Shown in pieces: positions 2,055 to 33,305 of a stretch of DNA of 33,729 nt. Both the position numbers and the translations under genes were made by a program. Position 1 is the first letter of the stretch. Each line of letters opens with the position of its first letter. A model generated the notes under the pieces. That model worked only from the letters and a program-made list of their open reading frames with translations, was not told where the DNA came from and did not search any database. The stretch comes from Candidatus Bipolaricaulota bacterium (lineage in GTDB: Bacteria; Bipolaricaulota; Bipolaricaulia; M55B111): positions 1 through 33,729 of the forward strand of contig JAGXLB010000009.1 of NCBI GenBank assembly GCA_018334915.1, read 5' to 3'.

Positions 2055-2160
2055 CAGGGAGCGCTTTGCTCATGTATGGCAACTAATTTAACCTTTAAAA
2101 ATTAGCAGTAGAGGTAACCCGGCATTTAGGTTAGGGGCGGAGAGCAGTTATTCAAACCGG
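2055..2160 (-). repeat. Hairpin-core repeat, copy A
   Basis: Minus-strand core ATGCCGGGTTACCTCTACTGCTAATTTTTAAAGGTTAAATTAGTTGCC; adjacent + strand GGTGAAAGAACTGAGT at 2178-2193 identical to the right terminal repeat of copy B. Confidence 0.75.
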
Positions 2161-2225
2161 ACACCTAAATCCGCGTCGGTGAAAGAACTGAGTGCTGATT
2201 AACGAAAAGAATGAGCTTATCAGAA

Positions 2226-9264: not shown

Positions 9265-9278
9265 GAGGGATCCTGACG

Positions 9279-11202: not shown

Positions 11203-11236
11203 AAACTGGCAAAGAACGGTAAAATAATCTTAAGAT

Positions 11237-12130: not shown

Positions 12131-12271
12131 AACGTCCACCTCCTGGTGGAAGTCAGGTAAAATAAGCACTTATTTTTGGACTTTTCTCGGCCAAACTCCA
12201 TATAGGAGCTTTATCATAGACTTTAAATATCACCTCCAGACAATATTAGACTATAAAATTTGTATAGCTAC

Positions 12272-13291
12272 CTATTCTCTTGCACCGATATTAGCCGTAG
12301 CCCTGTCTAATATCATGGCGGTAAATACGACAGCCAATCCAGCCACGAAGCCCTGCCCAACACGCATTCTCTGAATACCACGTACGACCTCTCCACCGAG
12401 GCCCCCAGCTCCAATCAAAGCTGCAACTACGGCCATGGAAAGGGCAAGCATGATGCTCTGATTGACTCCCTGCATGATTGATGGCCTGGCTACTGGAATC
12501 TGCACTTTCATCAGTAGCTGCCAGTAATTACAGCCAAATGCCTCGCCGGCTTCCACTAGCTCTTGAGGGACTTCACGGATCCCCAGGTTGGTCAGCCTGA
12601 CGGAAGGCGGATAGGCAAAAATTACTGTGGCCACCGCCCCGGGAGCCGCCCCCATGCCAAAAAATATAACTGCCGGAATCAAGTAAACGAATACAGGCAT
12701 GGTCTGCATTAAATCGAGAACCGGGCGAATAACATTATGCACCGTATCAGAAATCCCGGCCAGGATTCCAGAAGGAATTCCAAGACTAATAGCAATTAAA
12801 GCAGAAGTCAAAGTTAGTGCAAAAGTCTCCGTCGTCTCAACGTATAATCCGAAGTTGGCAGCAAGCCATAGAGTAACGAGTCCAAGTAAACCAGTCGATA
12901 TCTGACCCGCAAGATACCAGAGTAAAAAGAACAAGAGCAGGGACCAAACAGGGAATCGAATATCTAACCCACCAATTTCCACGACAAATATCGGTATCCA
13001 CTGGATTGCTGCCAGCAGAGCATCATTTATGGTATTTAACATCAGTTGTATGAAGTCGAAAAACGGGCCGAGGTTCAACGCTAACCAGTCCACGACAGCA
13101 ACCGTCCAATCATCCAGGGGAATCGACGCGGGCATAGCGGGTAATTCCAACAAGGAGGCACCTACCCGAGCAAAGGCGGTCCGAGCTGATAAAACCACCC
13201 AACCAATAATTCCCGGAACGGCAGCGAAGTATTTCTCTGGGAAAGAGTCGATCTTATTCATGGTTTTTCGATCCCCCCTCAGGGAATTCAA
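12272..13291 (-). CDS. opuAB: Glycine betaine/proline ABC transporter permease
   Basis: 339 aa, multiple TM segments, EAA-type loop (VPQELVEAGEAFGCNYWQLLMKVQIPVARPSIMQGVNQSIMLALSMAV). Confidence 0.92.
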   Translation of the reverse strand: MNSLRGDRKTMNKIDSFPEKYFAAVPGIIGWVVLSARTAFARVGASLLELPAMPASIPLDDWTVAVVDWLALNLGPFFDFIQLMLNTINDALLAAIQWIPIFVVEIGGLDIRFPVWSLLLFFLLWYLAGQISTGLLGLVTLWLAANFGLYVETTETFALTLTSALIAISLGIPSGILAGISDTVHNVIRPVLDLMQTMPVFVYLIPAVIFFGMGAAPGAVATVIFAYPPSVRLTNLGIREVPQELVEAGEAFGCNYWQLLMKVQIPVARPSIMQGVNQSIMLALSMAVVAALIGAGGLGGEVVRGIQRMRVGQGFVAGLAVVFTAMILDRATANIGARE

Positions 13292-13367
13292 AGAAAATAT
13301 TACTCCACTTATAAGTCGTCTTGTTTAACCTCCGGCCAAGATTTTCAAACCATAAGGTTTTCACGGC

Positions 13368-14537
13368 CTACTCACCCCTACCTTTTTCCAGAAGGCCCCG
13401 AAGGATGTTCTTTTCCCCAACAGACCCAATAAACTCTTGGTTTTTCAGAACTAGGACCGGATGTGAGGTATAGTCCAGCCTTGCCCTCATTATTTCGCTT
13501 ATTGGCGTATCAGGTGAAGAGAACAGAAGTGCCTCTTCTTCTATTCGTTCGTATTCGTCCAGAGGCCTAATTGGGACCGGTGTACCGGATAGGTATCCCT
13601 TTAAGACCTCCCCTTCGTCGCCTAACTCCACTTCAGTCAACTCGTCCAGTCTAACCTTGTCGTTTTCATCGAGTCGGAAATCCTTGTCCGCAACGGTTTC
13701 GGCTCGAAGGACGTCCGAAGGGTCAGCGTTCTCCACGAAATCAGCTACGTATTCGGTCTTTGGATTAACGATGATCTCCTCCGGCACACCCTTCTGGACC
13801 ATTTTCCCTCCGTCCATTATCGTGATCCTATCTCCTACTTTAAGTGCCTCGTCAAGGTCATGGGTTACAAAGAGGATGGTCCGCTGCATGTTCTCCATTA
13901 AATCGAGCAATTCGTCCTGCATCTCCACCTTTATCAACGGGTCAAGTGCCGAAAAAGGCTCGTCCATCAATAGAGCCTCAGCCCCAGTAGCTAATCCCCG
14001 AGCAAGACCAACTCTCTGCTGCATACCGCCTGAGAGTTGAGAGGGGTAGGAATCTCCGAACCCTTCGAGTCCAACGACCTCGATGAGTTCCTGTGATTTC
14101 CTTTCTCTTTCCTCCTGACTTATGCCCTGAATTTCAAGCCCAAATGCTATGTTGTCAAGAACCGTTCTGTGAGGAAATAGCGCAAAATTCTGAAAGACCA
14201 TACTGACTTGAGTCTCCCTGACTTCTCGCAGTTCCTCTTTCTCAGCGGAGGTAATATCGTAATCTTTCCCATCGGAATGTAACATTATACGGCCTTTCGT
14301 TGGCTCTACCAGCCTATTGACACACCTTAGTAGGGTGGACTTGCCCGAACCGGAAAGCCCCATTATGACAAATAACTCGTTGTTCTTTATTTTGAATGTT
14401 ATGTCCTGGACCCCGATCACCTGGCCGGTTTCTTCACGGACTTCGGTTTTACTAGCACCTTCATCAATCAACTTAAGCGCCTTTTCCGGCTCGTCACCGA
14501 AAATCTTGTATACACCCTCTAGCTCAATTGAAGGCAT
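13368..14537 (-). CDS. opuAA: Glycine betaine/proline ABC transporter ATP-binding protein with degenerate CBS-like C-terminus
   Basis: Walker A GLSGSGKS, signature LSGGMQQRVGLARGLA, Walker B ALLMDEPFSALDP. Confidence 0.95.
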   Translation of the reverse strand: MPSIELEGVYKIFGDEPEKALKLIDEGASKTEVREETGQVIGVQDITFKIKNNELFVIMGLSGSGKSTLLRCVNRLVEPTKGRIMLHSDGKDYDITSAEKEELREVRETQVSMVFQNFALFPHRTVLDNIAFGLEIQGISQEERERKSQELIEVVGLEGFGDSYPSQLSGGMQQRVGLARGLATGAEALLMDEPFSALDPLIKVEMQDELLDLMENMQRTILFVTHDLDEALKVGDRITIMDGGKMVQKGVPEEIIVNPKTEYVADFVENADPSDVLRAETVADKDFRLDENDKVRLDELTEVELGDEGEVLKGYLSGTPVPIRPLDEYERIEEEALLFSSPDTPISEIMRARLDYTSHPVLVLKNQEFIGSVGEKNILRGLLEKGRGE

Positions 14538-14850
14538 TTTTTCCTCCCGGACGAGTTTATTTTACGTCTATTTACTTAATTATAAATAGTACCGGAAAAA
14601 AACCAAATTTCGCCACAAATAACGTTCTAACCATAAAGATTGCAAACCAACAACGGATATAACCTGTAAAATTATTCTCCTTAACTTATGATGGGTAATC
14701 CGTGAACCACTCCGGTCGGTCTTCTTTAATACAATCCGGAACCTGCCAGGACTCCTCAGGAAACACTTTCTAAGAAAGATTTAAAATATTTAAACTAATC
14801 ATTCACTCTCTTACCGACAATCAATTTATATAGTAAATTTATTTTCCGAT

Positions 14851-14865
14851 CAGTATGCTATACTG
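14851..14865. promoter_or_regulatory. Palindromic candidate operator upstream of opuAA
   Basis: CAGTAT-GCT-ATACTG: perfect 6-bp arms with a 3-nt spacer, next to GTATATAC at 14880-14887. Confidence 0.4.
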
Positions 14866-14924
14866 TGCTTGTTTGGATAGTATATACCTGACCAGGTTAA
14901 TGCAAATATGACTTTCAGCTACAG

Positions 14925-14956
14925 AAAAAAGCGAGGAGATCAGTTGACCCCCTCGC
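14925..14956 (-). terminator. Rho-independent terminator downstream of the second MttB-family gene
   Basis: GCGAGG...CCTCGC stem; minus-strand U-tract TTTTTT immediately 3'. Confidence 0.75.
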
Positions 14957-14966
14957 CGTTTTAGTT

Positions 14967-16415
14967 CTACAATCTCTCAATTACGGTTTCGATTTTTTCC
15001 TTCGTCTCTTCAGGAAGCGGCTCAGGCTCGTGGTCTTCCAGTATTTCCTGGACCTTTTCCCGTAACCTCTCTTCCATGGATTTCGACCCCTTATCCATCC
15101 AGGTATCGGGAACGTCCCTGTCCATCAACGTAGGATGCCAGGCAACCTTTTTGAAGTTATCCATTGTATGCTCGTGCGTAAGGTGGTCTCCTTCGGGACC
15201 AACTTCGTCTATGACGTCCAGAGCTAACGTGTAATCGTTAACCTCAATCCCATTGGTGAACTTTTTAATCATTCCTACTATCTCGTCCACCATGGCAATT
15301 TGTTCCAGAGAACCCGTGGATGCTGACTCCATGTATCCCACATCGTGGACAAGATTGGCCCCACTCAACGCCGAGAAAAGCACGGACATAGTGGATTCAA
15401 TCCCTGATTGCTGATCGACGAGCTTTGAATCAGTACAACCGGCCGTGCCAAAGGTGGGTAGCTCGTAATGGTGAGCCATATCCATATAGGCCGCCGTGGC
15501 CAGTTCCTTTTCCGGAGCTCCGTAGGCCAGGATTGCCGTCTTCATATCCATAATCGAGATCACTCCACCGATGAAGAACGGTAGACCTTCTCTTCTTACC
15601 TGGGATATAACCAGACCGGAAAGGTTTTCCGCGTTACCCTGAGCAAGCTGGCCCGCCAGAGTGACAGGAGCACTCGCCCCGGCCTGGGGAATTGGTGTAT
15701 GAACCGTCGGTATGCCGTAATCAGCAGTGAGCAACAGCTTCTTGGAAGCGTCTTTGTCGTGAGTCAAGGGAGAGATAGGTTCGGAATACGAGATAACGAA
15801 TGGTTTCCTGAGGAACTCTTCTTTGCTACCCGCTACCGCCGAGGCCATCTCGACGATGTCCTCCAGTCCCTCGTTCGTATAGCTCCAGGCCACTATAGGT
15901 TTAGTCGTATTCTTTACCATAGCCTCGAACTCATGGCGATCGGAGTACTCGTGGGGTACATCATCGATAGTACCTAATCCGGAAACCCAGTCAATATTGT
16001 CCAGAGCGTCTACAAGCCGGGCTGCATCCACAGTATCCTGTTTGCGAAATGGTCTCCTTTCTCCCGTCTCCGTATCTCTCATGTTGAGTAACGTCGGACC
16101 CAGGCCAAAAGTTACGTTATGTCCCCCCAGGGTCAACGGGTTTTCGCCGTTTCTGTCGAATAAGTACGTCCGGGAAGGAGCGGAGTCAATAGCCCATTCC
16201 ACCAAGCTGGGAGGGAAGAAGACCCGGTCCCCTTCAACTTTACAGCCCGCTTCCTCCAGCATATCCCTCGTTTCTTTTAGATGGATATTGACTCCCGTAC
16301 TCTGAAGAATCTCCAGGGAAGCTTGGTGAATATCCTTAACCTGGGATTCGCTGAGCACGTTAAACCCGACTTTGTCTTGAGCAGACTTGTTAGCGAAAAG
16401 TTGATTTTCTAACAT
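14967..16415 (-). CDS. Trimethylamine methyltransferase (MttB) superfamily protein, non-pyrrolysine, MtgB-like
   Basis: 482 aa, full length without in-frame amber; GTAGCTDSKLVDQQSGIESTMSVLFSALSGANLVHDVGYM. Confidence 0.92.
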   Translation of the reverse strand: MLENQLFANKSAQDKVGFNVLSESQVKDIHQASLEILQSTGVNIHLKETRDMLEEAGCKVEGDRVFFPPSLVEWAIDSAPSRTYLFDRNGENPLTLGGHNVTFGLGPTLLNMRDTETGERRPFRKQDTVDAARLVDALDNIDWVSGLGTIDDVPHEYSDRHEFEAMVKNTTKPIVAWSYTNEGLEDIVEMASAVAGSKEEFLRKPFVISYSEPISPLTHDKDASKKLLLTADYGIPTVHTPIPQAGASAPVTLAGQLAQGNAENLSGLVISQVRREGLPFFIGGVISIMDMKTAILAYGAPEKELATAAYMDMAHHYELPTFGTAGCTDSKLVDQQSGIESTMSVLFSALSGANLVHDVGYMESASTGSLEQIAMVDEIVGMIKKFTNGIEVNDYTLALDVIDEVGPEGDHLTHEHTMDNFKKVAWHPTLMDRDVPDTWMDKGSKSMEERLREKVQEILEDHEPEPLPEETKEKIETVIERL

Positions 16416-16424
16416 TTTTCCTCC

Positions 16425-17882
16425 TTAATACTTTACATCTCGATTTTCTCTTTCTTCTTCAATTATCTCATCGAGTTTTTCCTGTTTGTCCTCTGTGAGA
16501 ACGTCGGCCTCGTAACTCTCCAGAATTTCTTCACTTTTCTCGCTAATTCTATCTCCCATTGACTTCTCCCCGTTCTTTTTCCAGTTGTCGTAGTTAGTCC
16601 GGTCCATGAGAGAGGGTTGCCAGTGCTCCTCCTTGAAGTTGTCCATTGTGTGAGAAGTGTTCAGGAAGTTGCCTTTCGGACCGACTTCGTTTATCAGGTC
16701 GAGAGGGATGTTGTCGCCGGAAGTGTCGATACCTTCCATAATTCTCTTTACCATACCTATTATTTCATTGCTCATTACCAGCTGGTCGTAGGAATAGAGA
16801 AGACCGGAAGCCAGATAACCAATGTCGTGAATCAGGTTGGCACCCACGAGAGACTGAGTAGCTATATTAAACGTAGCTTCAATCGCCGCCTGTGTATCCA
16901 CCAATTTGGAATCGGTTACCCCCGCTGTTCCAAACATCGGAAGATTCAGAAAGTTGCTCATTTCAGCCACGGCACCATTCATAAGGGCAAACTCCGGACC
17001 ACCGTATACGAACCCGGACGTCTTCATGTCAAGGATGGAATAGATACCACCTGTTACCATCGGTGCACCCTCGTTCACCAGCTGAGCCAGGGTTATCCCG
17101 GTAAGCGATTCGGCAATACCCAGTGCTATAGAGCCAGCAAAAGTCATCGGGCCGACCGCACCCGCAGAGGGCATCGGCGTGTAAATCGTGGGCAAATTGT
17201 GTTTTGCCCCGAAAATAGTCTGAGCCATAACTTCCTTGCTGTGGCTCAGTGGGGTAACCGGCTCGATGTAATGCATTATATAGGGCTTCGCCTTAAGCTT
17301 TTCCTCCCCCCCTACGGCGACTGACGCCATGTTAAATACGTCTTCCGTACCTCTTTCGTCCCAGGAACAGAACATGACGGGTTTGGAGGTATTTGCCATC
17401 ACCTGTCTTGCTTCCAGTATGTCCTGGACGTTTTCCTCCTCCTTCCTTAACAAACCTATAGGAGAAGAGAAATCAATATGTTCGAGAGCGTCACAGACCC
17501 TTGCCCACTTTTCAATATCTTCCGCTACGGTCTGCCTAATTTCTCCGTCTTCATCCAGGGTTCTGGGGACATCAGTTCCCGAACCAAAATAAGAATTTGT
17601 TCCTCCCAGCCTCATGGCCAGTTCGCCGTTCCTATCGTAAATCAAAACTTTCTTCGGAGCCTTTTCTACAGCGTCGTTAACCAAATGGGGTGGGAGATGA
17701 ACCATTTCATCCTCTACCCTGGCTCCCGCGCCGGCAAATATTGATCTTGCCTCTTCGTGATCTACCTTCACTCCAGTATTCTGGAGAATCTCCAGAGAGG
17801 CGTCGTAAATTTGCTCCTTATCGTCCTCGGAGAGTATATTGAACCGAGGAGTTCTGTTTACAAATTTATTTGACTGTAACAT
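16425..17882 (-). CDS. Trimethylamine methyltransferase (MttB) superfamily protein, non-pyrrolysine, second paralog
   Basis: 485 aa; GTAGVTDSKLVDTQAAIEATFNIATQSLVGANLIHDIGYL; 9-bp gap to the downstream paralog. Confidence 0.92.
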   Translation of the reverse strand: MLQSNKFVNRTPRFNILSEDDKEQIYDASLEILQNTGVKVDHEEARSIFAGAGARVEDEMVHLPPHLVNDAVEKAPKKVLIYDRNGELAMRLGGTNSYFGSGTDVPRTLDEDGEIRQTVAEDIEKWARVCDALEHIDFSSPIGLLRKEEENVQDILEARQVMANTSKPVMFCSWDERGTEDVFNMASVAVGGEEKLKAKPYIMHYIEPVTPLSHSKEVMAQTIFGAKHNLPTIYTPMPSAGAVGPMTFAGSIALGIAESLTGITLAQLVNEGAPMVTGGIYSILDMKTSGFVYGGPEFALMNGAVAEMSNFLNLPMFGTAGVTDSKLVDTQAAIEATFNIATQSLVGANLIHDIGYLASGLLYSYDQLVMSNEIIGMVKRIMEGIDTSGDNIPLDLINEVGPKGNFLNTSHTMDNFKEEHWQPSLMDRTNYDNWKKNGEKSMGDRISEKSEEILESYEADVLTEDKQEKLDEIIEEERENRDVKY

Positions 17883-21005: not shown

Positions 21006-21208
21006 ACTCAGTTATTTCACCAACGGTAAATTTACCCATCTGCCTGAATAACTGCTCCCTGCTCCTTAGCTGGCAACTGATTTAACCTTTAAACCCAGCA
21101 AGAGACGAAATCCGGCAGTCAGCTAAGAGGCAGGAGGCTTGAACTAAAAAATATGGTGATTCCTTGTGACCTTCACCTTACTTCCGAATAGCGGTGAAAG
21201 AACTGAGT
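21006..21208 (-). repeat. Hairpin-core repeat, copy B, bracketed by 16-bp terminal inverted repeats
   Basis: TIRs ACTCAGTTATTTCACC (21006-21021) and GGTGAAAGAACTGAGT (21193-21208), 15/16 complementary. Core stem CTGCTCCTTAGCTG (21059-21072) / CAGCTAAGAGGCAG (21120-21133). Minus-strand core CTGCCGGATTTCGTCTCTTGCTGGGTTTAAAGGTTAAATCAGTTGCC. Confidence 0.85.
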
Positions 21209-21329: not shown

Positions 21330-22013
21330 ATGAAAATTGGTGAAATTAGCTGGACGGACTTCCAGGAAGCAGCTCCTTCTTTAGCCTTAATCCCCACGGG
21401 TAGCACAGAACAGCACGGGCCCCACGGTCCCATGGCCACAGATACTATAATCGCCGAATCAATCGCAGAACGAGCCGCCGAAGAGACGGAGACACTTTTG
21501 CTTCCAGCGATCGGCGTTGGTGTTTCGCGGGAACACGCTAACTTTCCTGGATCACTATACTTTTCCCCAGAAGTCTTTCGGGATCAGCTAGGGGAAATAA
21601 TATTGTCCGCTCATAACAGCGGGATCGATGATTTTATCGTAGTGAACGGTCACGGGGGAAACGTATCATCGATTAAGGAAGTTTGCAAAGCTCTGTATCA
21701 CGACCACGACGTAAGAGCAATTGAATGGACCTGGTTTAATGTAATCTCGGCTTCGGGGATGGGACACGGGGGGGAACTTGAAACATCTCTGATCATGTAC
21801 CTCAGGGAAGAGTTAGTTGGAAAGCCTATAGAGAAAGGCTCGGAGTCCTGGGGGCATAGCCTGTACGGAACCAGGTGGGCCTACGATACAAAAGAATTCA
21901 CGGAAAACGGGGTAGTTGGAGACCCAACAGAAGCTTCCAGAGAAAAAGGAGAAAATCTGTTCAATAAATCGACGGAAAAGTTAATTAAACTAATAAAAAG
22001 TATGAGGAACTGA
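21330..22013 (+). CDS. Creatininase-family amidohydrolase
   Basis: 227 aa; IPTGSTEQHGPHGPMATDT, VVNGHGGNVSSI, GHGGELETSL metal-ligand motifs. Confidence 0.92.
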   Translation: MKIGEISWTDFQEAAPSLALIPTGSTEQHGPHGPMATDTIIAESIAERAAEETETLLLPAIGVGVSREHANFPGSLYFSPEVFRDQLGEIILSAHNSGIDDFIVVNGHGGNVSSIKEVCKALYHDHDVRAIEWTWFNVISASGMGHGGELETSLIMYLREELVGKPIEKGSESWGHSLYGTRWAYDTKEFTENGVVGDPTEASREKGENLFNKSTEKLIKLIKSMRN

Positions 22014-22084
22014 AACTTTGCTGCTTTCTAAAGTAATTACATCGTTCGCGATTTTCAATATACTCATCAGAACGAGGAGGACTT

Positions 22085-22567
22085 ATGAGCCAAAAATCTA
22101 GCCCCGAAAATTCAGTACAGGATAAAACTTTTCTCGAGTTGGTCGAAGAATTGCCACCGGAGCGAGAGTCAGTAATTCCTGCGCTCCAGAAGATACAGAA
22201 AAGTCAGGGTTACCTGCCTGAAGACGCGCTGGAGACAATAGCTGACTACACGGACACACCACTGGCAAACGTTACTGGAATTGCGACTTTTTACTCGCAG
22301 TTTTATCTGGAACCCCAGGGTGATCACACAATCAAGGTTTGCCAGGGTACAGCCTGTCATATAAAAGGCGCGGACGATATTCTGGATGAATTAAAGCGGG
22401 AATTAGACGTTAAGGCGGGAGAAGTCACTTCGGACGGTAAGTTTACTCTTACAAATGTCAGATGTCTCGGCGCCTGTAGCCTGGCTCCCGTGATTATGGT
22501 GGACGAAGACGTTCACGGAAACCTTACCACGGAAAAGGCAATAGAAGTTCTGGAGGAATACGAATGA
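22085..22567 (+). CDS. NuoE-like [2Fe-2S] NAD(P)H dehydrogenase subunit of formate dehydrogenase complex
   Basis: 160 aa; VCQGTACHIKGADDIL, TNVRCLGACSLAPVIMVDEDVHGNLT. Confidence 0.94.
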   Translation: MSQKSSPENSVQDKTFLELVEELPPERESVIPALQKIQKSQGYLPEDALETIADYTDTPLANVTGIATFYSQFYLEPQGDHTIKVCQGTACHIKGADDILDELKRELDVKAGEVTSDGKFTLTNVRCLGACSLAPVIMVDEDVHGNLTTEKAIEVLEEYE

Positions 22568-24237
22568 AAGTCACAAGTAAAGAAGATCTGGAAGATATCA
22601 AGAAGCGGGGACTGACCTCCCTCCAATCCGACAAAACAAAGGTTAAAGTGGGCCTGGCCTCTTGCGGAAAAGCAGCTGGCGGGGACAAAGTTTTTGCCAA
22701 ACTCGAGGGAACACTGGAAGGACAAGAGGGGATCGCGGTCGAGAAAACCGGCTGTCTCGGTTTCTGTGCTCGGGAACCACTAGTGGAAGTCGAGGGCCCG
22801 GAGGGAGATTCCCTTGTCTTTGAAGAAGTAGACGAAGAAAGCGCAGCCAGGATAGCGAACTCGTTAAAAGAGGGAAAAACGCCCGAAGCTAAAGTCCTTG
22901 GGAGAAAGGGAAACGGCGAGAAAAAATACGGCGACAGGAAAGACCTCAATTCGTTGGATTTTTATCGCTCACAGAAAAAACTGGTATTGAAAAACAGCGG
23001 GATTATTGATCCAGAAAGCCTGGAGGAATACGCGGCAAAGGACGGTTACTTCGGGCTCTGGAAGGCAATGAACAAATACTCACCGGGAGAAGTTATCGAA
23101 GAAGTAAAATCTTCAGGTCTCCGGGGCAGAGGAGGAGCCGGTTTCCCAACAGGCAAAAAATGGGAATTCGCTCGTAATGCCGAGGGCAATCCGAAGTATG
23201 TAATCTGCAATGCCGATGAGGGAGATCCAGGAGCTTACATGGATAGAAGTATTCTGGAAGGCGATCCATTCTCGGTTCTTGAGGGAATGGCAATCGGTGC
23301 TTACGCTATTGGGGCAAATCAAGGTTATATTTACGTTCGAGCGGAGTATCCGGTAGCAGTAGAGCGGCTAAAAAAGGCAATTGAGCTGGCCGAGGACCGC
23401 GGCTTCCTTGGTGAAGATATAATGGGAACTGGATTCGATTTCGAACTCGAGATAAAACAGGGAGCCGGAGCCTTCGTCTGTGGAGAGGAAACCGCGTTAA
23501 TTGCTTCCATTCAATCAAAACGGGGTATGCCATCACCCAGACCGCCATTTCCTGCTCAATCAGGATTCCGGGGCCAGCCAACGAATATCAACAACGTCGA
23601 GACGTGGGCAAACGTTACTACCGTCTTTATCCGGGGAGCTGAATGGTTTTCCTCTATCGGCACCGAAGACAGTAAAGGTACGAAGGTCTTCTCTCTGACG
23701 GGAGATATCGATAATACGGGCTTAGTCGAAGTACCAATGGGAACGACTATAGAGGAAATAGTCTATAAAATAGGTGGTGCCGAACGAGGCTCGATTAAAG
23801 CAATTCAGACCGGTGGCCCTTCCGGTGGGGTTATTCCAAAAGAGAAGTTCGATCTTCCAGTGGACTACGAATCACTCCAGGAAGCTGGTTCGATAATGGG
23901 TTCGGGAGGGCTAATAGTAATGGACGAAGAAACCTGCCTGGTAGAAGTAGCTCGGTTCTTTCTCGACTTCATTCAGGACGAATCCTGCGGGAAGTGTACT
24001 CCCTGCCGAGACGGGACGAAAAGAATGCTGGAAATCCTCGAGCGGTTGACTTCGGGTAATAGTACTGAAGAGGACATCAAAATACTCGAGGAGCTCTCCC
24101 ATTACGTCAAGGAATCCTCTCTCTGCGGGTTGGGCCAAACTGCTCCAAATCCGGTACTTTCGACACTACGATACTTCCGAAACGAATACGAGGCTCACCT
24201 GGAAGGTAACTGCCCCGCGGGCGTTTGTTTCGAATAA
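22564..24237 (+). CDS. NuoF-like flavoprotein subunit of NAD-linked formate dehydrogenase
   Basis: 557 aa; GLRGRGGAGFPTGKKWEFA, CNADEGDPGAYMDRSILEGDP, ESCGKCTPCRDGT; N-terminal thioredoxin-like 2Fe-2S domain. Overlaps nuoE by 4 nt. Confidence 0.94.
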   Translation: MKVTSKEDLEDIKKRGLTSLQSDKTKVKVGLASCGKAAGGDKVFAKLEGTLEGQEGIAVEKTGCLGFCAREPLVEVEGPEGDSLVFEEVDEESAARIANSLKEGKTPEAKVLGRKGNGEKKYGDRKDLNSLDFYRSQKKLVLKNSGIIDPESLEEYAAKDGYFGLWKAMNKYSPGEVIEEVKSSGLRGRGGAGFPTGKKWEFARNAEGNPKYVICNADEGDPGAYMDRSILEGDPFSVLEGMAIGAYAIGANQGYIYVRAEYPVAVERLKKAIELAEDRGFLGEDIMGTGFDFELEIKQGAGAFVCGEETALIASIQSKRGMPSPRPPFPAQSGFRGQPTNINNVETWANVTTVFIRGAEWFSSIGTEDSKGTKVFSLTGDIDNTGLVEVPMGTTIEEIVYKIGGAERGSIKAIQTGGPSGGVIPKEKFDLPVDYESLQEAGSIMGSGGLIVMDEETCLVEVARFFLDFIQDESCGKCTPCRDGTKRMLEILERLTSGNSTEEDIKILEELSHYVKESSLCGLGQTAPNPVLSTLRYFRNEYEAHLEGNCPAGVCFE

Positions 24238-24259
24238 CTACTCAATCTGAGGAGGAAAT

Positions 24260-26974
24260 ATGGCAAATACGACAAAAACAAAAAGTATAGAGATGAAGAT
24301 AAATGGAGAGGTCGTAGAAGGTGACCAGGGAGATACCATACTGGAAGTAGCGGAAAAGAACGGTATAGAGATTCCCACTCTCTGTCATATGGATCAGCTG
24401 GAACCTACCGGAGCCTGCAGGATGTGTCTGGTGGAACTCGTCGACTCCGGAGAGGTTGTGACTTCATGTACTCAACCGGCAAGCGATGGCCTTGAGGTGG
24501 AAACACACAATGATCGCGTGGAACAGTCACGAAAGCTAAACCTGGAATTGCTTCTTTCAAATACCGACGTCAACGTTGATTGCAAGAGTGAGGAGACGCG
24601 GTGCGAACTGACGGAACTGGTCGGAAAGTACGACCTGGACCCCGAGAGGTTCTCTGGTGAAAAAAGATCCCATCCGAAGATGGAGGATAACCCGTTCTTT
24701 GAACTCGATCACGACAGGTGTATTCTTTGTGGTCGCTGCGTAAGAGCCTGCGACGAAATCCGGGGCCGTTCAGCAATAGATTTCGTAAACCGTGGTTTCA
24801 AGACGAAAATCGCACCACCTCTGGACCGGTCCCTGACAGAAGGAACATGTCAGTTCTGCGGCCAGTGTGTCGACGCGTGTCCTTCCGGTGCCCTTACTTC
24901 AAATATGAGAATAGACAAGGGAAATCCGAACGAAGTAGAGACAACCTCGACCATTTGTACCTACTGTGGCGTCGGCTGCCGGATGAACGTCCACACGAGA
25001 GACGGTGAGGTCGTCGACGTATCTCCGGACCCCGAAGCACCAGCAAACGATATCCGGCTCTGCAGTAAAGGCAGGTTCGGTTTCGACTTCGTCAACCGAG
25101 AGGATCGATTGTCACAGCCGTTAATCAAAGAAGACGGCGAATTCAGAGAGGCCTCCTGGGAGGAGGCTATCGACCTGGTAAGCGATAAACTCGGTGGTAT
25201 AAAAGAGCAATACGGACCCGACGCGATCGCTGGCCTATCATCAGCGACCTGCACAAACGAAGAAAATTACCTATTCCAAAAGTTTATGCGGGCGACGATA
25301 GGCACGAACAGCGTGGATCATTGCGCTCGACTCTGCCACTCCTCTACTGTTGCCGGCCTGGTCAGGGCTTTTGGCAGCGGTGCAATGACGAACTCCATAG
25401 GTGAAATTAGAGATGCCGATACTATTCTCGTAACCGGTTCTAATACGACGGAATCTCATCCGGTAATCGGCCTTGAAGTGAAGAAAGCGGTCGAAAACGG
25501 ATCAAACCTGATCGTCGCCGACCCCAGGGAGATAGAACTGGTCCAGGAAGGTGACGCCGATATCCATATGAGACAGAATTCCGGCACGGACGTCGCCTGG
25601 CTCATGGGCATGATAAATATCATTATCGAAGAAGGTCTCGTCGACGAGGAATTCGTCAAAGATAGGACGGAAAACTTCGAATCCTTGAAGGAATCGGCTG
25701 CCGAGTTCCCGCCGGAGAGGGTCGAGGAAATCACAGGAATAGCCGAAGACAAGCTAAGAGAAGCAGCCCTTATGTACGGAGAAGCGGATAAGGGTACTAT
25801 ACTGTTTGCCATGGGAATTACCCAGCACAGCCATGGTACTGACAACGTACTATCCGTCGCAAACCTGGCAATGGTTACCGGGAACGTCGGAAAAGAATCC
25901 ACAGGAGTTAACCCGTTGAGAGGTCAAAATAATGTCCAGGGTGCCTGTGACCTGGGAGCCCTGCCCAACGTATATCCAGGATACCAGAACGTAGACGCGA
26001 AGGAAAACCAGGAAAAATTCGAAGAGGCCTGGGAGGCAGATTTGTCCCCGGAACCGGGCCTTACAGTGGTCGAAATGATGAACGCTGCTGGAGAAGGAGA
26101 CGTGAAAGGGATGTATATTATGGGCGAAAACCCGATGGTCAGCGATCCCGATATCGGCCACGTTGAGAAGAGCCTGGAAAACCTCGACTTCCTGGCCGTC
26201 CAGGATATCTTTCTGACAGAAACGGCCGAGTACGCCGACGTGGTTTTGCCCGCAGCCAGCTTTGCCGAGACGGAAGGGTCTTTCACCAATTCCGAGAGGA
26301 GAATCCAGAAGCTGAACAAGGCACTCGAACCGAAGGGTAATACCAGGCCCGACTGGGAGATCATCTCCGAGCTAAGCGGGAGACTAGGAAACCCCATGAA
26401 CTACGACTCGGCGATGGAGTTGACGAACGAGATAACCGAAGTGACGCCGATCTACGGCGGAATAACCGCGGAGCGAATAAAGGATAAACAGGGCTTACAG
26501 TGGCCCTGCCGGGACGAAGACGATCCGGGAACAAAATTCCTCCACGAAGGCGAGTTCAGCAGGGGTCTGGGCAAGTTCCACTCAATCAGTTACCGCGACC
26601 CCGCAGAGATGCCCGACGAGGACTACCCGATGACTCTGACGACGGGCCGGATGTACTATCACTTCCACACGAGATCGATGACGGGAAGGTCCAAGGGACT
26701 GGACGAGCTGGTACCGGAAGCTTACGTGGAAATGAACCCCGCTGACGCAACTTCTCTGGAAGTGGAAGAAGGAGAGAAGATCAAGGTAAGCTCTCGCAGG
26801 GGAGAGATAGAAATAAAGACCAAGGTCACGGACAGAGTACCTGAAGGAACGATCTTTATCCCATTCCACTTCGCCGAAGCAGCGGCAAACCGACTTACTA
26901 ATCCAGAACTGGACCCAATCGCCAAGATACCTGAACTGAAGGTAGCTGCGGTGAAAGTCGAAAAGATAGGTTAG
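24260..26974 (+). CDS. fdhA: Formate dehydrogenase alpha subunit, Cys-type, with NuoG-like N-terminal Fe-S domains
   Basis: 904 aa; 2Fe-2S CHMDQLEPTGACRMC, CILCGRCVRAC, CQFCGQCVDACP, molybdopterin domain CTYCGVGCRMN...DHCARLCHSSTVAGL; C-terminal molydopterin dinucleotide binding domain. Confidence 0.94.
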   Translation: MANTTKTKSIEMKINGEVVEGDQGDTILEVAEKNGIEIPTLCHMDQLEPTGACRMCLVELVDSGEVVTSCTQPASDGLEVETHNDRVEQSRKLNLELLLSNTDVNVDCKSEETRCELTELVGKYDLDPERFSGEKRSHPKMEDNPFFELDHDRCILCGRCVRACDEIRGRSAIDFVNRGFKTKIAPPLDRSLTEGTCQFCGQCVDACPSGALTSNMRIDKGNPNEVETTSTICTYCGVGCRMNVHTRDGEVVDVSPDPEAPANDIRLCSKGRFGFDFVNREDRLSQPLIKEDGEFREASWEEAIDLVSDKLGGIKEQYGPDAIAGLSSATCTNEENYLFQKFMRATIGTNSVDHCARLCHSSTVAGLVRAFGSGAMTNSIGEIRDADTILVTGSNTTESHPVIGLEVKKAVENGSNLIVADPREIELVQEGDADIHMRQNSGTDVAWLMGMINIIIEEGLVDEEFVKDRTENFESLKESAAEFPPERVEEITGIAEDKLREAALMYGEADKGTILFAMGITQHSHGTDNVLSVANLAMVTGNVGKESTGVNPLRGQNNVQGACDLGALPNVYPGYQNVDAKENQEKFEEAWEADLSPEPGLTVVEMMNAAGEGDVKGMYIMGENPMVSDPDIGHVEKSLENLDFLAVQDIFLTETAEYADVVLPAASFAETEGSFTNSERRIQKLNKALEPKGNTRPDWEIISELSGRLGNPMNYDSAMELTNEITEVTPIYGGITAERIKDKQGLQWPCRDEDDPGTKFLHEGEFSRGLGKFHSISYRDPAEMPDEDYPMTLTTGRMYYHFHTRSMTGRSKGLDELVPEAYVEMNPADATSLEVEEGEKIKVSSRRGEIEIKTKVTDRVPEGTIFIPFHFAEAAANRLTNPELDPIAKIPELKVAAVKVEKIG

Positions 26975-26978
26975 AAAA

Positions 26979-27014
26979 AATAACCCCCTCCTTTAAAAAG
27001 AGGAGGGGGTTATT
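26979..27014. terminator. Strong terminator hairpin after fdhA, possibly bidirectional
   Basis: AATAACCCCCTCCT / AGGAGGGGGTTATT, 14-bp perfect stem; U-tract present on the minus-strand reading. Confidence 0.85.
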
Positions 27015-27028
27015 AAGAGCCTTCATAG

Positions 27029-27175
27029 TTTAGTTCTTTCGCCATTGTTTATGAACCAAGTCTACTTCAGGATGTTATTTTCACGCTTCACTCTATAAGC
27101 CTTCCCTGCTTCGTCTGACAACTTATTTGACCTTAAAACTTAGACACACCCAAAATCCCAGTAGAAAGGTAACGA
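27029..27175 (-). repeat. Hairpin-core repeat, copy C, with left terminal repeat
   Basis: Minus-strand core CTACTGGGATTTTGGGTGTGTCTAAGTTTTAAGGTCAAATAAGTTGTCA; TTTAGTTCTTTCGCC at 27029-27043 matches the B terminus 12/15. Confidence 0.7.
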
Positions 27176-27294
27176 TAAACGGGTTGTAAGTATATGATTG
27201 AGCTGTTACGCATGAATCACGTTTCAAATATTTCCGCTTTGTAAGAGAACCGGGCCGGTAAGGATATTACCATAACCGAGTAAGTTTAACCCTA

Positions 27295-27385
27295 CCCCCC
27301 TCTGACGCTTAGCGGGCTGCCGGGATCTCATCTATGTCCGATCTTCAACGGTTAGATCAGTTGCCCGCTAAGCGTCAGAGGGGGG
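27295..27385 (+). repeat. Hairpin-core repeat, copy E, perfect 23-bp stem
   Basis: CCCCCCTCTGACGCTTAGCGGGC (27295-27317) / GCCCGCTAAGCGTCAGAGGGGGG (27363-27385), exact reverse complements; core CTGCCGGGATCTCATCTATGTCCGATCTTCAACGGTTAGATCAGTTGCC. Confidence 0.93.
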
Positions 27386-27464
27386 TTGAGATAGACCACG
27401 CGAGTCGGAAATTTCCAGGCTCGGGGAGCTCAGATGTACAATCGGCAGGGCGTGGGAGCCAGGT

Positions 27465-27614
27465 TTACTTAAGCCACAGAAGCTGATTTAACCTTAAAAA
27501 ATTGAACATATTCAAAATCCCGGCAGCCAGGTAAGCGGGGAGAGGGGGTAAAGATAAATTCAAGTGATCCTCCACGGCTTTCGACTTGCTTCATAAACTG
27601 TGGAATAATTTAGT
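27465..27614 (-). repeat. Hairpin-core repeat, copy D, with right terminal repeat
   Basis: Minus-strand core CTGCCGGGATTTTGAATATGTTCAATTTTTTAAGGTTAAATCAGCTTC; GTGGAATAATTTAGT at 27600-27614 matches the B terminus 12/15. Confidence 0.75.
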
Positions 27615-27632
27615 TAAGGATTGGGTCGAAGG

Positions 27633-28217
27633 TTAATATATATCCAGGTCTTCCAAATCCTCTTGTGTATTGACGTTATAGAAGCAGTCAGGGGGGATCT
27701 TTCCGCTTTCGATCAATCCTTCGACCGACACCTCTTTGACTTCATCAAGTCGATCGAGAAAGTCGGTGATCTTCCTCGTTCCGCCTTCCAAAATATTCTT
27801 AAGCCGTGGCAGAACGCTTTTATGGTAGAGGGCTGTTAACGGTTCTAGGTATCCGGACTTCCATCGAGGTATGACTGCTTCGGTTTCACTTTCGACTTCT
27901 GAATAAAGTTCTTCCACTATCCGAGTGTCCAGGTAGGGCAGGTCGCAGGCTGATACAAACAGCCAGTCGTGTTCGGCGTGGGTGAGGGCTGAATATATCG
28001 CGCCGAGAGGCCCTGTTTCCGATACGAGGTCGGGCCTGGCAGGAAGATCGTATTCGTCCTTAGGGTCGATCTGGAGGAAAACGTCGTCGCTTTTTTTCTC
28101 CAACTTGCTCCAGACGAGTTTGTATAAGGGAACCCCGTCCACTTCCACCAGCGTCTTGTCCTCCCCAAATCGGCTGGAATCACCTCCACAGAGAATCGCG
28201 ATCGACAGGTCAGTCAT
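27633..28217 (-). CDS. mobA: Molybdenum cofactor guanylyltransferase
   Basis: 194 aa; AILCGGDSSRFGEDKTLVEVDG, SACDLPYLD. Confidence 0.9.
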   Translation of the reverse strand: MTDLSIAILCGGDSSRFGEDKTLVEVDGVPLYKLVWSKLEKKSDDVFLQIDPKDEYDLPARPDLVSETGPLGAIYSALTHAEHDWLFVSACDLPYLDTRIVEELYSEVESETEAVIPRWKSGYLEPLTALYHKSVLPRLKNILEGGTRKITDFLDRLDEVKEVSVEGLIESGKIPPDCFYNVNTQEDLEDLDIY

Positions 28218-28221
28218 CCCT

Positions 28222-30168
28222 TTAACCGGGGGAATATATTACTTCACCAGCTCCATCCCTCGGATAGAGCCCCGGTATCTTTTTTAGAATTCTGGCGAAC
28301 TCGGAGCCGGTAAGTTTTTCCTGGAACTTTTTACCGAAAGAAGACTTTAAAGCATCCTTCCGACAGATAAAATCGAACTTTTCGTCCTTCAGTTTCATGA
28401 ACCCCAGCCCTTTTGATTCGGCAACTGACCTTATACCCATTCCCGCGCCAGCTTTTCCGTCCCTTACCGCAGCAGCCACGGCGTTATGGGTGGACAACTC
28501 GACTTCATAGCCGGGAATCTCACGTCTTACCTCTTTAACATCCCTGCCGAGCTTCTCGGCGGCTCCTTCCAGCAGGTGATCGAATAGTACTCTCGTACCC
28601 GATCCGGAAGTTCTGTTGGCTATCCGTATACGGCTCTCGATTAGATCCACCAGAGATTCTATATCTTCCGGGTTACCCGAGGGTAAAATCAATCCCTGTT
28701 CCCTTCCATATCCCCTCAGCAGCTTTATTCCTTCAAGATCGCGCTTCTCCAGAACCGGTACGTTATAACCCTCTTCGCTCCAGATGTGAACCCCGGCGAC
28801 GTCGGCAACGTCGTTGGAAATTGCCTCGATTCCTCCCGTCGATCCCCGGTGAATTGACCGGGTTCCAAACGGCAACAGTTCCAGCAGGCGGTTTAATCCG
28901 ACACAATTGCTGCCAATAAATAGCAATTTCGGCAGCTCACCGTCTTCAGTCAATAATCTAACCTCGACTTCCTCATTCCGATCCAGGTAATTGACCCCTT
29001 CCGGAATCGTCACGTATCCGTCGGCCTGGGATAGGAGCGTAACCGCCCCACTAACCTTATTTATCGGGTAGGCTCGCTTCCCTCCCTCTCGATCTACAAT
29101 CCCGACGAATTTCTGCTCCATCCGACCTCCCTCAGAGGTCGTTCTATCCGTCAGTCTGGCTTTTGGAGCCGGACTTTTCGACTCTTTTTCTCCGGTGAGC
29201 TTACGGATTACCGGGGCAACAAAGTTCATGTAAACCACGTAAGCGGAAGAGGGGTTACCGGGCAACCCGAAAAAAGGTACTCCGTCCAGATCGGCCAGTA
29301 CTGACGGTTTACCCGGTTTTATTTTCACTCCGTGGGCAAGTAACTCTCCTCTTTCTTCCAGCACGTCGTAAACCATGTCGTGGGGACCGGCACTCGTACT
29401 GCCCGAGGAAATAAGCAGGTCGTACTCCTCGGTCCCTTGATCTATCAGTTCACCCATCTCGACGAGGTCGTCGTTCACGATCCCCATTCCGTGGGGTCGC
29501 CCTCCAGCCTCCTCTACTCCAGTTATCAGCAGGGACGAATTTACGTCGTAAATCATTGCTTCGGGTAGTTCTCCACCGGGAGAAACAAGTTCCGGTCCGG
29601 TGGAGATAATTCCTACATCCGGTGATCTAAGGACCTCCACATCTTCCAGACCGGAAGCCGCCAGTTTGGCGATCTCCAGAGGGGTTAACTCTTTGTCCTG
29701 CCGGATTATAAGATCGCCAGTCGCGATATCAGTTCCAGCGGAGAGGACGTTTTCGCCGGGAACAGCGGACGATTTTACCAGTAGCTCGTCTCCTTTCCTT
29801 TCCGTATCCTCAACCATGACGACCGCGTTGGCTCCAGCCGGTATTCCCGCCCCAGTCGGGATTTCGGTAGCCTGCCCTTCTTTTACTGTAAGTGAAAAAG
29901 GTCGGCCAATCTCAACTTCCCCTCCGATTTCCAGTCGTTTCGGGTTTTCTTCGTCCGCTCCGTACGTATCGGATGCCACCACGGCGTAGCCATCCATCAG
30001 TGAACGACTGAACGGGGGGGCGTCCGACCTGGCGTAGACGTTTTCCGCGGTTACCTTCCCCAGAGCGCCTTCCAGGGGTACACGTTCCGACTTCCGTTCA
30101 AGCGAGAAGCTTTTGATCAGTTTCCGAAACTCCTCCGGACTTATAAGATCTCTAAATTCCTTTCTCAT
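28222..30168 (-). CDS. MoeA molybdopterin molybdotransferase fused to C-terminal periplasmic-binding-protein-like domain
   Basis: 648 aa; MoeA part (MDGYAV, STSAGPHDMVYDVLEE, GLPGNPSSAYVVYMNFV) plus PBP-like part (LLFIGSNCVGLNRLLELL..., RTSGSGTRVLFDHLL). Confidence 0.92.
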   Translation of the reverse strand: MRKEFRDLISPEEFRKLIKSFSLERKSERVPLEGALGKVTAENVYARSDAPPFSRSLMDGYAVVASDTYGADEENPKRLEIGGEVEIGRPFSLTVKEGQATEIPTGAGIPAGANAVVMVEDTERKGDELLVKSSAVPGENVLSAGTDIATGDLIIRQDKELTPLEIAKLAASGLEDVEVLRSPDVGIISTGPELVSPGGELPEAMIYDVNSSLLITGVEEAGGRPHGMGIVNDDLVEMGELIDQGTEEYDLLISSGSTSAGPHDMVYDVLEERGELLAHGVKIKPGKPSVLADLDGVPFFGLPGNPSSAYVVYMNFVAPVIRKLTGEKESKSPAPKARLTDRTTSEGGRMEQKFVGIVDREGGKRAYPINKVSGAVTLLSQADGYVTIPEGVNYLDRNEEVEVRLLTEDGELPKLLFIGSNCVGLNRLLELLPFGTRSIHRGSTGGIEAISNDVADVAGVHIWSEEGYNVPVLEKRDLEGIKLLRGYGREQGLILPSGNPEDIESLVDLIESRIRIANRTSGSGTRVLFDHLLEGAAEKLGRDVKEVRREIPGYEVELSTHNAVAAAVRDGKAGAGMGIRSVAESKGLGFMKLKDEKFDFICRKDALKSSFGKKFQEKLTGSEFARILKKIPGLYPRDGAGEVIYSPG

Positions 30169-30171
30169 CTC

Positions 30172-31359
30172 TTACCTCCAGTAATGCAGTTCGACGCTCT
30201 TTCCCACAGCGATGCCCTCCAATTCCTCGGGGACCAGGACGAACCCGTCGCTTCTGGTCACGCTGGACAGCACGCCGGATCCGGCTACTCGAATCGGGTA
30301 CGCCCCGCCGTCTTCGACCTTTACCCTTACTAGACTGAGTCTTCCCAGCTTAGAAGATATCTTCTTTTTTAGTTCCACAGTAGCCGTTTTTTGCTCCCTC
30401 TCGCCCCCTACCAAATATTCGATTAGTGGTTTCAAAAAGAAATAGGCATCGGCAAGCGCCGCTACCGGGTACCCCGGCAAAGCAAGAACAGGAGTCTCGT
30501 TAACTAGAGCGAGCGCTACCGGTTTACCGGGCTGTACTGCAACCCCGTGGACGATGACTTCCCCTTCTTCTTCCAGTACCTCCACGATCCTGTCCCTCCG
30601 GCCTACGGAACTACCCCCGATAAAGACGATTGCGTCACTTTCCTCCAGACTCCTGTTCAGAGCAGAACGCAGGTCTTCGGGTAGATCGCTAAGTACTTCT
30701 CGTTCCTCCGGATCGCCTCCCCATCTCCGAACGCAGCTGGAAATCATCAACCCGTTGGATTGAACCGTCTCTCCCGGTCCCGGTTCTTCGCCCGGAGACA
30801 CGAGTTCTTCGCCCGTCGGAATTACCTTAACCTTTGGTTTTGTTGCTACATTCAACTTCTCTACCCCGAGTGACCTCAATAATCCAAGGTGAGAAGGCTG
30901 GATTGCTGTTCCCTCTTCCAGCAACAAGTCTCCTTTCCCTACATCTTCCCCGACGGGGCTGACGTTGTCTCCAGGAGCGATGGAGGCGTACACGTCTAAG
31001 CTCTCACCTTCCCGTCTGGTGTCTTCGATCTTCAATACACCGTCTGCTTCGTCGGGAACGTGACCTCCGGTATGCACTGGAGACGCAATACCGCTTTTAA
31101 CCGAATCGCCAATTTTCATCCTGTTTGGGGACGATTCACTTGCTCCAAAAGTATCCGAAGCTTTTACGGCAAAACCGTCCATCGCGGCACGGCGATAATG
31201 GGGAGCGGGTCGTGGTGCAAGTACTTCCTCGGCAGATATCGTGCCGTCCGCTTCCGGGAGGTTAAGAGATTCCTCTCTATCGAGAGGTTTTATGGTGGAA
31301 AAAAGCTTCGTTCTCGCTTCCGAAACTCTCGTTAATGATTTAAACCCTTTTTCCTTCAC
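30172..31359 (-). CDS. moeA: Molybdopterin molybdenumtransferase MoeA (ORF track start 31413 overlaps moaA; GTG at 31359 after GGGGGG is a plausible start)
   Basis: RRAAMDGFAVKASDTFGA, GGSSVGRRDRIVEVLEE, LPGYPVAALADAYFF. Confidence 0.9.
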   Translation of the reverse strand: MKEKGFKSLTRVSEARTKLFSTIKPLDREESLNLPEADGTISAEEVLAPRPAPHYRRAAMDGFAVKASDTFGASESSPNRMKIGDSVKSGIASPVHTGGHVPDEADGVLKIEDTRREGESLDVYASIAPGDNVSPVGEDVGKGDLLLEEGTAIQPSHLGLLRSLGVEKLNVATKPKVKVIPTGEELVSPGEEPGPGETVQSNGLMISSCVRRWGGDPEEREVLSDLPEDLRSALNRSLEESDAIVFIGGSSVGRRDRIVEVLEEEGEVIVHGVAVQPGKPVALALVNETPVLALPGYPVAALADAYFFLKPLIEYLVGGEREQKTATVELKKKISSKLGRLSLVRVKVEDGGAYPIRVAGSGVLSSVTRSDGFVLVPEELEGIAVGKSVELHYWR

Positions 31360-31361
31360 CG

Positions 31362-32342
31362 TTACCCCCCGATTTCGGACATCTCTCCGGCAGTGGTGTC
31401 CTGCTTTTCCCACCGGTGCCCGTAGGGTTTCTCCTCAATTATCTTGCGTAACCGCGTGGTAATAACGTCCACGGAAGTGTTTTCATTGATACCCAGGTCG
31501 TACTCTTCGTCTCTGGCGAGACAGGGGCGGACCTTACCCCGGGAGGTAATTCTAATCCTATTGCAATCATCACAAAAACTCCTGCTGAGGGGAAAAATAA
31601 ATCCAACCTTTCCCGAAGTATTTCTCCGAGAAGCCCGATAGTACTTGGCCGGACCATTTCCTTGAGGACCGGAAATCTCTTCCAGGGTCCACTTCCTTTT
31701 TATAATTTTTTCCACTTTATTCAGTGGCAAGGATTCAATCGCACCTTTTGCGGCCTCGCCCATGGGCATGAGTTCTATGAACCTCAACACGAGATCTTCA
31801 GCAGCGGCAAATTCCATCAGGGGGCCTATTTCCGATTCATTCACGTCTTTAATTATTACAGTATTTAACTTTACTGGGTCTAGCTTGGCCCTCTTTGCAG
31901 CTTCGATTCCGGCAAGGACCGAACTTAGTTCTCCACGTCTTGTTATTTCGGCAAATACTTCCGGGTCCATGGCGTCAATGCTGATATTTACCCTATCCAG
32001 GCCCGCTTGAGATAGATCCTCCGCCACCCCGGATAAGGAGGACCCGTTCGTGGTTAGTGAAAGTTCGTCGATTCCTTCAATCGCATCCACCATTTTGACC
32101 AGTCCGGGTAAGTCCTTCCTGGTCAGGGGTTCGCCGCCGGTAAACCTCACTTTGTTAATTCCTAATTCTGACGCAGCTCTGACCAGATTAACTATTTCCT
32201 CAAAGGAAAGAATTTCCTCTCGGGGCAGTTTCTCTATACCCTCTTCGGGCATACAATATTTACAGCGGAAATTGCACCTTCCGGTGAGAGAAAGTCGCAA
32301 ATAGGTTATATCTCTTCCAAAGCTGTCCTTCATCAACCTCAC
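31362..32342 (-). CDS. moaA: GTP 3',8-cyclase
   Basis: 326 aa radical SAM protein CNFRCKYCMPEEG, RFTGGEPLTRKDL, second cluster CDDCNRIRITSRGKVRPCL. Confidence 0.97.
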   Translation of the reverse strand: MRLMKDSFGRDITYLRLSLTGRCNFRCKYCMPEEGIEKLPREEILSFEEIVNLVRAASELGINKVRFTGGEPLTRKDLPGLVKMVDAIEGIDELSLTTNGSSLSGVAEDLSQAGLDRVNISIDAMDPEVFAEITRRGELSSVLAGIEAAKRAKLDPVKLNTVIIKDVNESEIGPLMEFAAAEDLVLRFIELMPMGEAAKGAIESLPLNKVEKIIKRKWTLEEISGPQGNGPAKYYRASRRNTSGKVGFIFPLSRSFCDDCNRIRITSRGKVRPCLARDEEYDLGINENTSVDVITTRLRKIIEEKPYGHRWEKQDTTAGEMSEIGG

Positions 32343-32833
32343 TCCTTGTCGATTTCGTATATCGCGTGACCGATCGCGGGGAGGATTAACTCCTCCATTC
32401 CCAGCTCTACAGCGGATGGTGAACCGGGAAGGGAAAAAACCAGAGTAGCGTTTATCAACGAAGCGCGAGCCCGTGACAGCATTGCCCGGGGACCTATTTC
32501 ATCGAAACTCAAACTCCGAAATAACTCTCCGAAACCGGTAAGTTCTTTGTCCTCGTAGTTTTCAAGCACGTCGACCGTCTGGTCGAGGGTCGATAATCCT
32601 GTACCACCTGTTATCAACAAAACCCTGGCCTCTGACGACACAGCATTTTCAATTTCAGTTTCAATCTTCCCCGGCGAGTCCGGTATAACTTTCCTTTCCT
32701 GAAGCTGATGACCCTCAGCTATAAGGAGATCCCTTATTATCTCTCCGCTCTCGTCTTTGTCGTCCTCCCTGGTGCTGCTAACTGTCAGAATTCGGCATAT
32801 AATCCCATTCTTTACCAGGTCTTCGTGACCCAA
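32339..32833 (-). CDS. MoaB/Mog molybdopterin adenylyltransferase family
   Basis: 164 aa; LLITGGTGLSTLDQTVDVLE, LINATLVFSLPGSPSAVELGMEELILPAIGHAIYEI. Confidence 0.92.
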   Translation of the reverse strand: MGHEDLVKNGIICRILTVSSTREDDKDESGEIIRDLLIAEGHQLQERKVIPDSPGKIETEIENAVSSEARVLLITGGTGLSTLDQTVDVLENYEDKELTGFGELFRSLSFDEIGPRAMLSRARASLINATLVFSLPGSPSAVELGMEELILPAIGHAIYEIDKE

Positions 32834-32834
32834 G

Positions 32835-33305
32835 TCAATTCCCCTCTTTTATCAATTCTAACTCGTCGCCGGGGCGAATGCTTCCACCTTCCAGGACCTT
32901 GAAGAACAGGCCCTTCTGTGGCATGATGCACTCACCGGTTTTTTCCTTAATCACACAATCGTCGTGACAGGTTTTACCTATCTGAGAAACTTCCAGCAGA
33001 ACCTCTCCTCCTACTTTCAACCGCGTTCCCAGGGGTAGTTTCCCAAGATCCAGTCCCTCGCTGGTAAGGTTCTCAGCAAAATCACCCGGATTTAGCTCTA
33101 CCCCTGTTCTCTCCTCCATCTTTTCAATTTCCGAGACGTCGAGAAGACTGACCTGTTTGATCTCGGAACCGGCGTGAACGTCGCCCTTAATACCGTGATC
33201 TTCAACTAAATTTGCTTCCTCAACGGGAGTTTTAACCTCTCCTTTCTCCTTGCTGGTATTAATCGAAACCAGATTTGCTTCTTCACTTACTCCTCTTCCA
33301 GTCAC
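32835..33305 (-). CDS. MOSC domain protein
   Basis: 156 aa; GIKGDVHAGSEIKQVSLLD, ELNPGDFAENLTSEGLDL, CHDDCVIKEKTGECIMPQKGLFFKVLEGG. Confidence 0.9.
   Translation of the reverse strand: MTGRGVSEEANLVSINTSKEKGEVKTPVEEANLVEDHGIKGDVHAGSEIKQVSLLDVSEIEKMEERTGVELNPGDFAENLTSEGLDLGKLPLGTRLKVGGEVLLEVSQIGKTCHDDCVIKEKTGECIMPQKGLFFKVLEGGSIRPGDELELIKEGN

Follow-up and report, generated by a model that had tools for sequence, protein, structure and literature searches.

A palindrome between fdhA and mobA and its relatives in the window

The window, that is, the whole stretch of 33,729 nucleotides that was analyzed, belongs to a 2.9-Mb MAG of Candidatus Bipolaricaulota (the host genome, G000; its sister species is G001). 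The region 21330-33305 contains a formate dehydrogenase-like operon (22085-26974) adjoined by molybdenum-cofactor genes on the other strand (27633-32342; MobA, two MoeA-like proteins and MoaA). The fdhA-like gene is followed directly by a perfect, G/C-rich hairpin (26979-27014, AATAACCCCCTCC...GAGGAGGGGGTTATT) that resembles a common intrinsic terminator. At 2226-17882 lie the folate one-carbon genes FolD and formate-THF ligase. The same region encodes a glycine-betaine-type binding protein (10221-11111) and a protein resembling trimethylamine methyltransferase (16425-17882), which scores 424 bits, short of the curated cut-off of 525; taken together, these genes suggest methylamine or betaine one-carbon metabolism.

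The hairpin studied here occupies the intergenic gap between the convergent fdhA and mobA genes. A preliminary description of the sequence had reported a perfect 23-bp hairpin, and the segments 27295-27317 and 27363-27385 are indeed exact reverse complements enclosing 45 nt. It had also argued that this is not a terminator, which agrees with the 45-nt loop and with the absence of a T run on both sides. The folding energy is about -66 kcal/mol on either strand, with a z-score of -8.7 relative to dinucleotide shuffles. The core of the hairpin recurs at four further places in the window. All four are oriented GGCAACTGATTTAACC...ATCCCGGCAG on the + strand, opposite to the window hairpin, whose core is on the - strand. 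Three recurrences have E values of 1e-4 to 3e-3 (2078-2124, 21072-21118 and 27483-27526), with nothing comparable in shuffled windows used as a control, while the fourth (27122-27172) was detected via its similarity to the copy at 27483; a search of the window for the 20-nt core centre, allowing up to 3 mismatches, gave no other site. The recurrence that had been described is therefore real, but weaker than worded, as the copies are only about 71-73% identical. The statement that every copy has a stem of its own is true of 21055-21138 and, weakly, of 2062-2145, but not of the copies at 27122 and 27483, which have lost their stems and retain 7/20 and 4/20 pairs, respectively. The real unit exceeds the hairpin: it is about 200 bp long, with terminal inverted repeats (TIRs) and a 5-bp target duplication. 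The features in the window are the following:

27295..27317, + strand: left arm of the perfect 23-bp palindrome, exact reverse complement of the right arm
27363..27385, + strand: right arm of the perfect 23-bp palindrome, exact reverse complement of the left arm
27317..27365, - strand: conserved core (loop and innermost stem bases), family orientation GGCAACTGATCTAACC...GATCCCGGCAG
21007..21207, + strand: complete 201-bp element, with TIRs at 21007-21021 (CTCAGTTATTTCACC) and 21193-21207 (GGTGAAAGAACTGAG), hairpin 21055-21138 and core 21072-21118
2062..2192, + strand: partial copy whose left arm is decayed and whose right TIR (2178-2192) is intact; hairpin/core at 2062-2145
27028..27255, + strand: degenerate copy that has lost its stem; core at 27122-27172, left TIR remnant TTTAGTTCTTTCGCCA at 27028 and a weak remnant of the right TIR at 27241-27255
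27479..27548, + strand: half copy, core and right stem arm retained, left arm gone

Extent, ends and movement of the family

Hairpin and core-motif searches of the host genome returned tens of copies. Using a covariance model built from 30 copies, with a cut-off of E<=0.01, we obtained 80 matches in the host MAG, which correspond to 66 places after removal of 14 antisense matches to the same palindromes; the window hairpin was matched at 27297-27382 on the - strand with 89.9 bits. The same model gave at least 74 matches in the sister species, 25 in G003, 9 in G002 and 1 in G004, all of the same genus, and none in 55 further Bipolaricaulota genomes from other genera of that family or class. Across 85,488 genomes, the exact core pattern had matches in MAGs of Candidatus Bipolaricaulota alone; these bear the names GSL3510_1 and Tobar, which we take to stand for the hypersaline Great Salt Lake and Lake Tobar. 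Rfam covariance models gave no match at the gathering threshold and nothing relevant at E<=5, and the open-licence papers retrieved for transposons of the phylum concern no such elements, as judged by their titles and the first parts of their abstracts. The family was found only in one salt-lake genus of Bipolaricaulota and previously undescribed. These results bear out the proposal of a repeat family not recognised before, in which the paired stems vary while the apical core is conserved and for which Rfam has no match, as well as the expectation that the core would extend beyond the window, the covariance model having placed it across the host genome and its close relatives. Copies avoid genes: 1/125 falls within an ORF of 120 aa or more, compared with 85/125 random positions.

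Intact copies carry CTCAGTTCTTTCACCA at the left and TGGTGAAAGAACTGAG at the right, around the hairpin, and measure 192-225 bp from TIR to TIR, mostly 200-202 bp. The TIRs are 15-16 bp long, and 56 elements have both. In 22/56 of these the flanking 5-mers are identical, compared with 0.5% for mismatched flank pairs; other duplication lengths show a small excess at most (4 bp: 5/56 vs 1.3%), and mean flank identity peaks only at 5 bp. Subfamilies differ in their outer arms and have the core and the inner stem in common. Two loci record insertions. In G001, between the fdhA and mobA homologues, an older copy has a 202-bp copy inserted in its loop; TAGTA stands at each end of the insert, and joining the flanks of the insert restores an ordinary family core:

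L188 (G001), reverse complement, 2110-2720: one MITE inside the loop of a second, with TAGTA duplicated

In addition, a site that is empty in G001 is occupied in G000 (L165 vs L011), with the duplication ATCAA. At the G001 counterpart of the window fdhA-mobA locus, both species have several copies, and individual insertions are not matchable in the alignment. Movement, ends and target duplication are thus documented for the family, whose elements are small, non-coding, multicopy and dispersed, with TIRs and a duplication of fixed length. Given the TIRs, the 5-bp duplications, the nested insertion, the empty site and the intergenic location, the family is a MITE-like non-autonomous transposon, and not an RNA family or a REP/RAYT palindrome.

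We searched the genus, whose MAGs are fragmented and 70-86% complete, for an autonomous element or a transposase with these TIRs and found none. Four transposase families were tried (PF01609, PF13701, PF00872 and PF01797) and gave no TIR-flanked gene in the genus; PF01609 was not found there, and the PF13701 and PF00872 loci are without MITE TIRs. A partner may have been missed, since the MAGs are incomplete and only a few transposase families were tried. TIR pairs 400-4000 bp apart, considered as a larger element, were only pairs between separate copies, judging by inner TIRs and flanks. Solo TIRs, considered as partner ends, led to copies that had been disrupted, to an N gap or to hairpin sequence that by eye is IS605-like, and no larger element was reached from the left arm of subfamily A. 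Several IS256-type (Transposase_mut) loci without MITE TIRs are present in the host genome, some of them interrupted by stops (C129, C239, C276 and C193 of G000). At L066 (position 1501, - strand) and L043 (position 615), hairpin-rich sequence adjoins the end of the MITE; it looks like the end of an IS605-type element and may come from a second element that inserted there, within the MITE.

Stem covariation and loop inversion

The stem covaries strongly. Two-sided changes affect 13/18 predicted stem pairs, the covariation score is 0.301 compared with at most 0.106 for slid controls, and the structure also exceeds shuffle controls. On average 18.6 of 20 stem pairs are Watson-Crick, vs 14.7 when arms are swapped between copies. 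The 94 well-paired copies contain 273 two-sided Watson-Crick changes, counted as cells, vs 82 G-U/A-C cells; the 273 represent copies and not independent events, and are inflated by shared ancestry. A parsimony count on a tree of the 45-nt loop gave 177 double changes, a figure valid as an order of magnitude only. For 41 copies the loop of the nearest neighbour differs at no more than one site, and 32/41 of them already differ from that neighbour by complementary stem changes, as is directly explained if one arm is copied from the other. Stem pairing falls with loop divergence (rho -0.62), which indicates that most copies are not maintained in place.

The loop occurs in both orientations relative to the outer arms, in a ratio of 20:21 in subfamily B and 40:10 in subfamily A. 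At two orthologous locus pairs it is reversed while flanks, TIRs and outer arms are collinear:

L051 (G000) vs L161 (G001): orthologous inversion, flipped loop identity 38/45 vs collinear 27/52
L067 (G000) vs L176 (Tobar): orthologous inversion, flipped loop identity 33/45 vs collinear 25/48

L051 and L161 have in common the rare variant ATTTGACC, present in 7/135 copies, which favours inversion in place over replacement. An assembly artefact is unlikely, since the hairpin of about 91 nt can be spanned by one short read; the comparison is based on assemblies.

Origin of the hairpin and relation to known systems

Based on these patterns, we propose that a transposase acting in trans on the TIRs would have moved the element into the fdhA-mobA gap, its interior comprising two arms of about 20-24 bp around the conserved 45-nt loop. 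The arms would pair as a hairpin in single-stranded DNA at replication, and the polymerase would then switch template and copy one arm from the other, a step that we infer from the observed pattern. Such copying would remove mismatches and make each change reappear as its complement in the other arm, and a switch spanning the loop would leave the loop inverted. Template switching fits because it homogenises arms and inverts spacers, the two peculiarities seen here. In yeast genes, switching between the arms of inverted repeats is reported to make the arms alike and to invert the spacer (PMC8604942), and in rRNA it is reported to create and maintain hairpins, loop inversions included (PMC8794818). 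These reports likewise describe double compensatory changes and spacer inversion with the arms in place; however, the cases concern single loci with spacers of about 3-8 nt, whereas here a mobile family of 135 examined copies has a 45-nt spacer. That the inversions described there involve 3-8 nt and not 45 counts against the template-switch reading. Ectopic conversion between copies could be a part source of loop inversion and stem turnover, and is conceivable because the inner stem is common to nearly all copies.

The window hairpin is probably the central palindrome of a decayed copy of this MITE-like element of about 200 bp. It has no recognisable TIRs, and its loop is diverged by 11 edits while the stem is perfect, a combination of unrecognisable ends, strongly diverged loop and perfect stem that marks it among the examined copies. 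One recent arm-homogenising switch is the simplest explanation for such a stem, and the copy would thus be an old, end-less element with recent homogenisation. The perfect stem could also mean local selection, given the diverged loop and the lost ends. A domesticated copy, serving as a bidirectional terminator or as an mRNA 3' stabiliser, would suit both this combination and the position between convergent genes; it appears rather unlikely, as the hairpin lacks a T-tract and has a 45-nt loop, a canonical terminator-like hairpin (26979-27014) already follows fdhA, and the locus is built differently in the sister species.

For the family as a whole, strong stem covariation, a conserved loop, a large folding energy excess and an intergenic location are what would be expected of a structured non-coding or cis-regulatory RNA, whose transcript would fold and whose loop would bind a protein or ligand. 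If an RNA were under selection, its transcribed strand would be expected to accept G-U pairs but not A-C. On the loop-sense strand, however, G-U does not exceed A-C (46 vs 36, no strand bias, p=0.32); both strands fold equally, the loop of subfamily B is oriented about 50:50 relative to the element, copies decay with age, Rfam gives no match, and the family is genus-restricted, with variable copy number and empty sites. The structured RNA under selection envisaged in the preliminary description is therefore very unlikely: the missing preference for G-U over A-C and the loss of pairing with loop divergence both contradict it. Its other suggestion, a REP/REPIN-like palindrome moved as a single-stranded hairpin by a Y1 transposase (RAYT or IS200/IS605-type), or a folded single-strand recombination site, would account for palindromic, intergenic repeats in high copy number, and Y1_Tnp proteins are encoded in G000, G001 and G003. 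Yet what moves is a unit with inverted repeats at its ends that leaves a 5-bp duplication, which Y1 transposition is not known to do, it measures 200 bp where a REP has 20-40 bp, and the Y1 genes are flanked by neither the core nor a convincing element end; we regard movement by Y1 as highly improbable.

A closer contender is a MITE that cannot transpose without its central hairpin. The hairpin would either arise as an intermediate or be the binding site of the transposase or of a host factor; pairing and loop would then be selected at each jump, and the flip would be a by-product of hairpin processing. The core and inner stem conserved across subfamilies with different outer arms, the good pairing of young copies and the decay of old ones expected of selection at mobilisation, and the flipping loops are all in line with such a role, and the conserved core suggests a role in transposition or an exchange between copies. 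Against it, template switching alone explains the two-sided changes without surplus intermediates, and the core could also be kept uniform through an exchange of modules among copies; we consider it improbable. By analogy with viral terminal hairpins, the hairpin might be an active part of the life cycle, processed in flip-flop fashion during mobilisation or replication, for which we see a slim chance; each round would then re-copy one arm and randomise loop orientation, making this a bacterial mini-transposon with an obligatory palindrome-copying step. Under the template-switch reading, loop flipping and matched arms most likely reflect DNA-level copying errors and not a functional RNA, and host function is not needed to explain the hairpin. 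Strong stem covariation, normally regarded as proof of functional RNA, here most likely comes from copying between palindrome arms at the DNA level. The lack of asymmetry between G-U and A-C, together with inversion of the 45-nt loop in place, can serve as simple diagnostics for such false positives.

Integron attC sites are folded single-strand recombination sites, imperfect palindromes with conserved and variable parts; in contrast, movement of the new family leaves 5-bp duplications with TIR ends. REP/REPIN sequences with RAYT transposases (PMC3116915, PMC2817692) are also intergenic palindromic repeats in high copy number, and the new family differs from them by its TIRs, its 5-bp duplication, its 200-bp unit and the lack of association with a Y1 transposase. 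The prokaryotic MITEs Nezha, Chunjie, QMITE2 and ERIC (PMC10969869) are alike in being 50-500 bp long and non-coding, with TIRs and a target duplication, and are likewise intergenic, hairpin-forming and presumed to be mobilised in trans. Comparison of descriptions, and not of sequences, sets the new family apart from these four by a different TIR and the 5-bp duplication; a parent IS was not found for it. What is new relative to known MITEs, again as described, is a centre that forms a separate palindrome, with a long conserved loop of 45 nt found in both orientations and thus invertible. The family adds a MITE to an uncultured phylum, and its 135 copies constitute a natural data set in which arm homogenisation and spacer inversion can be measured.
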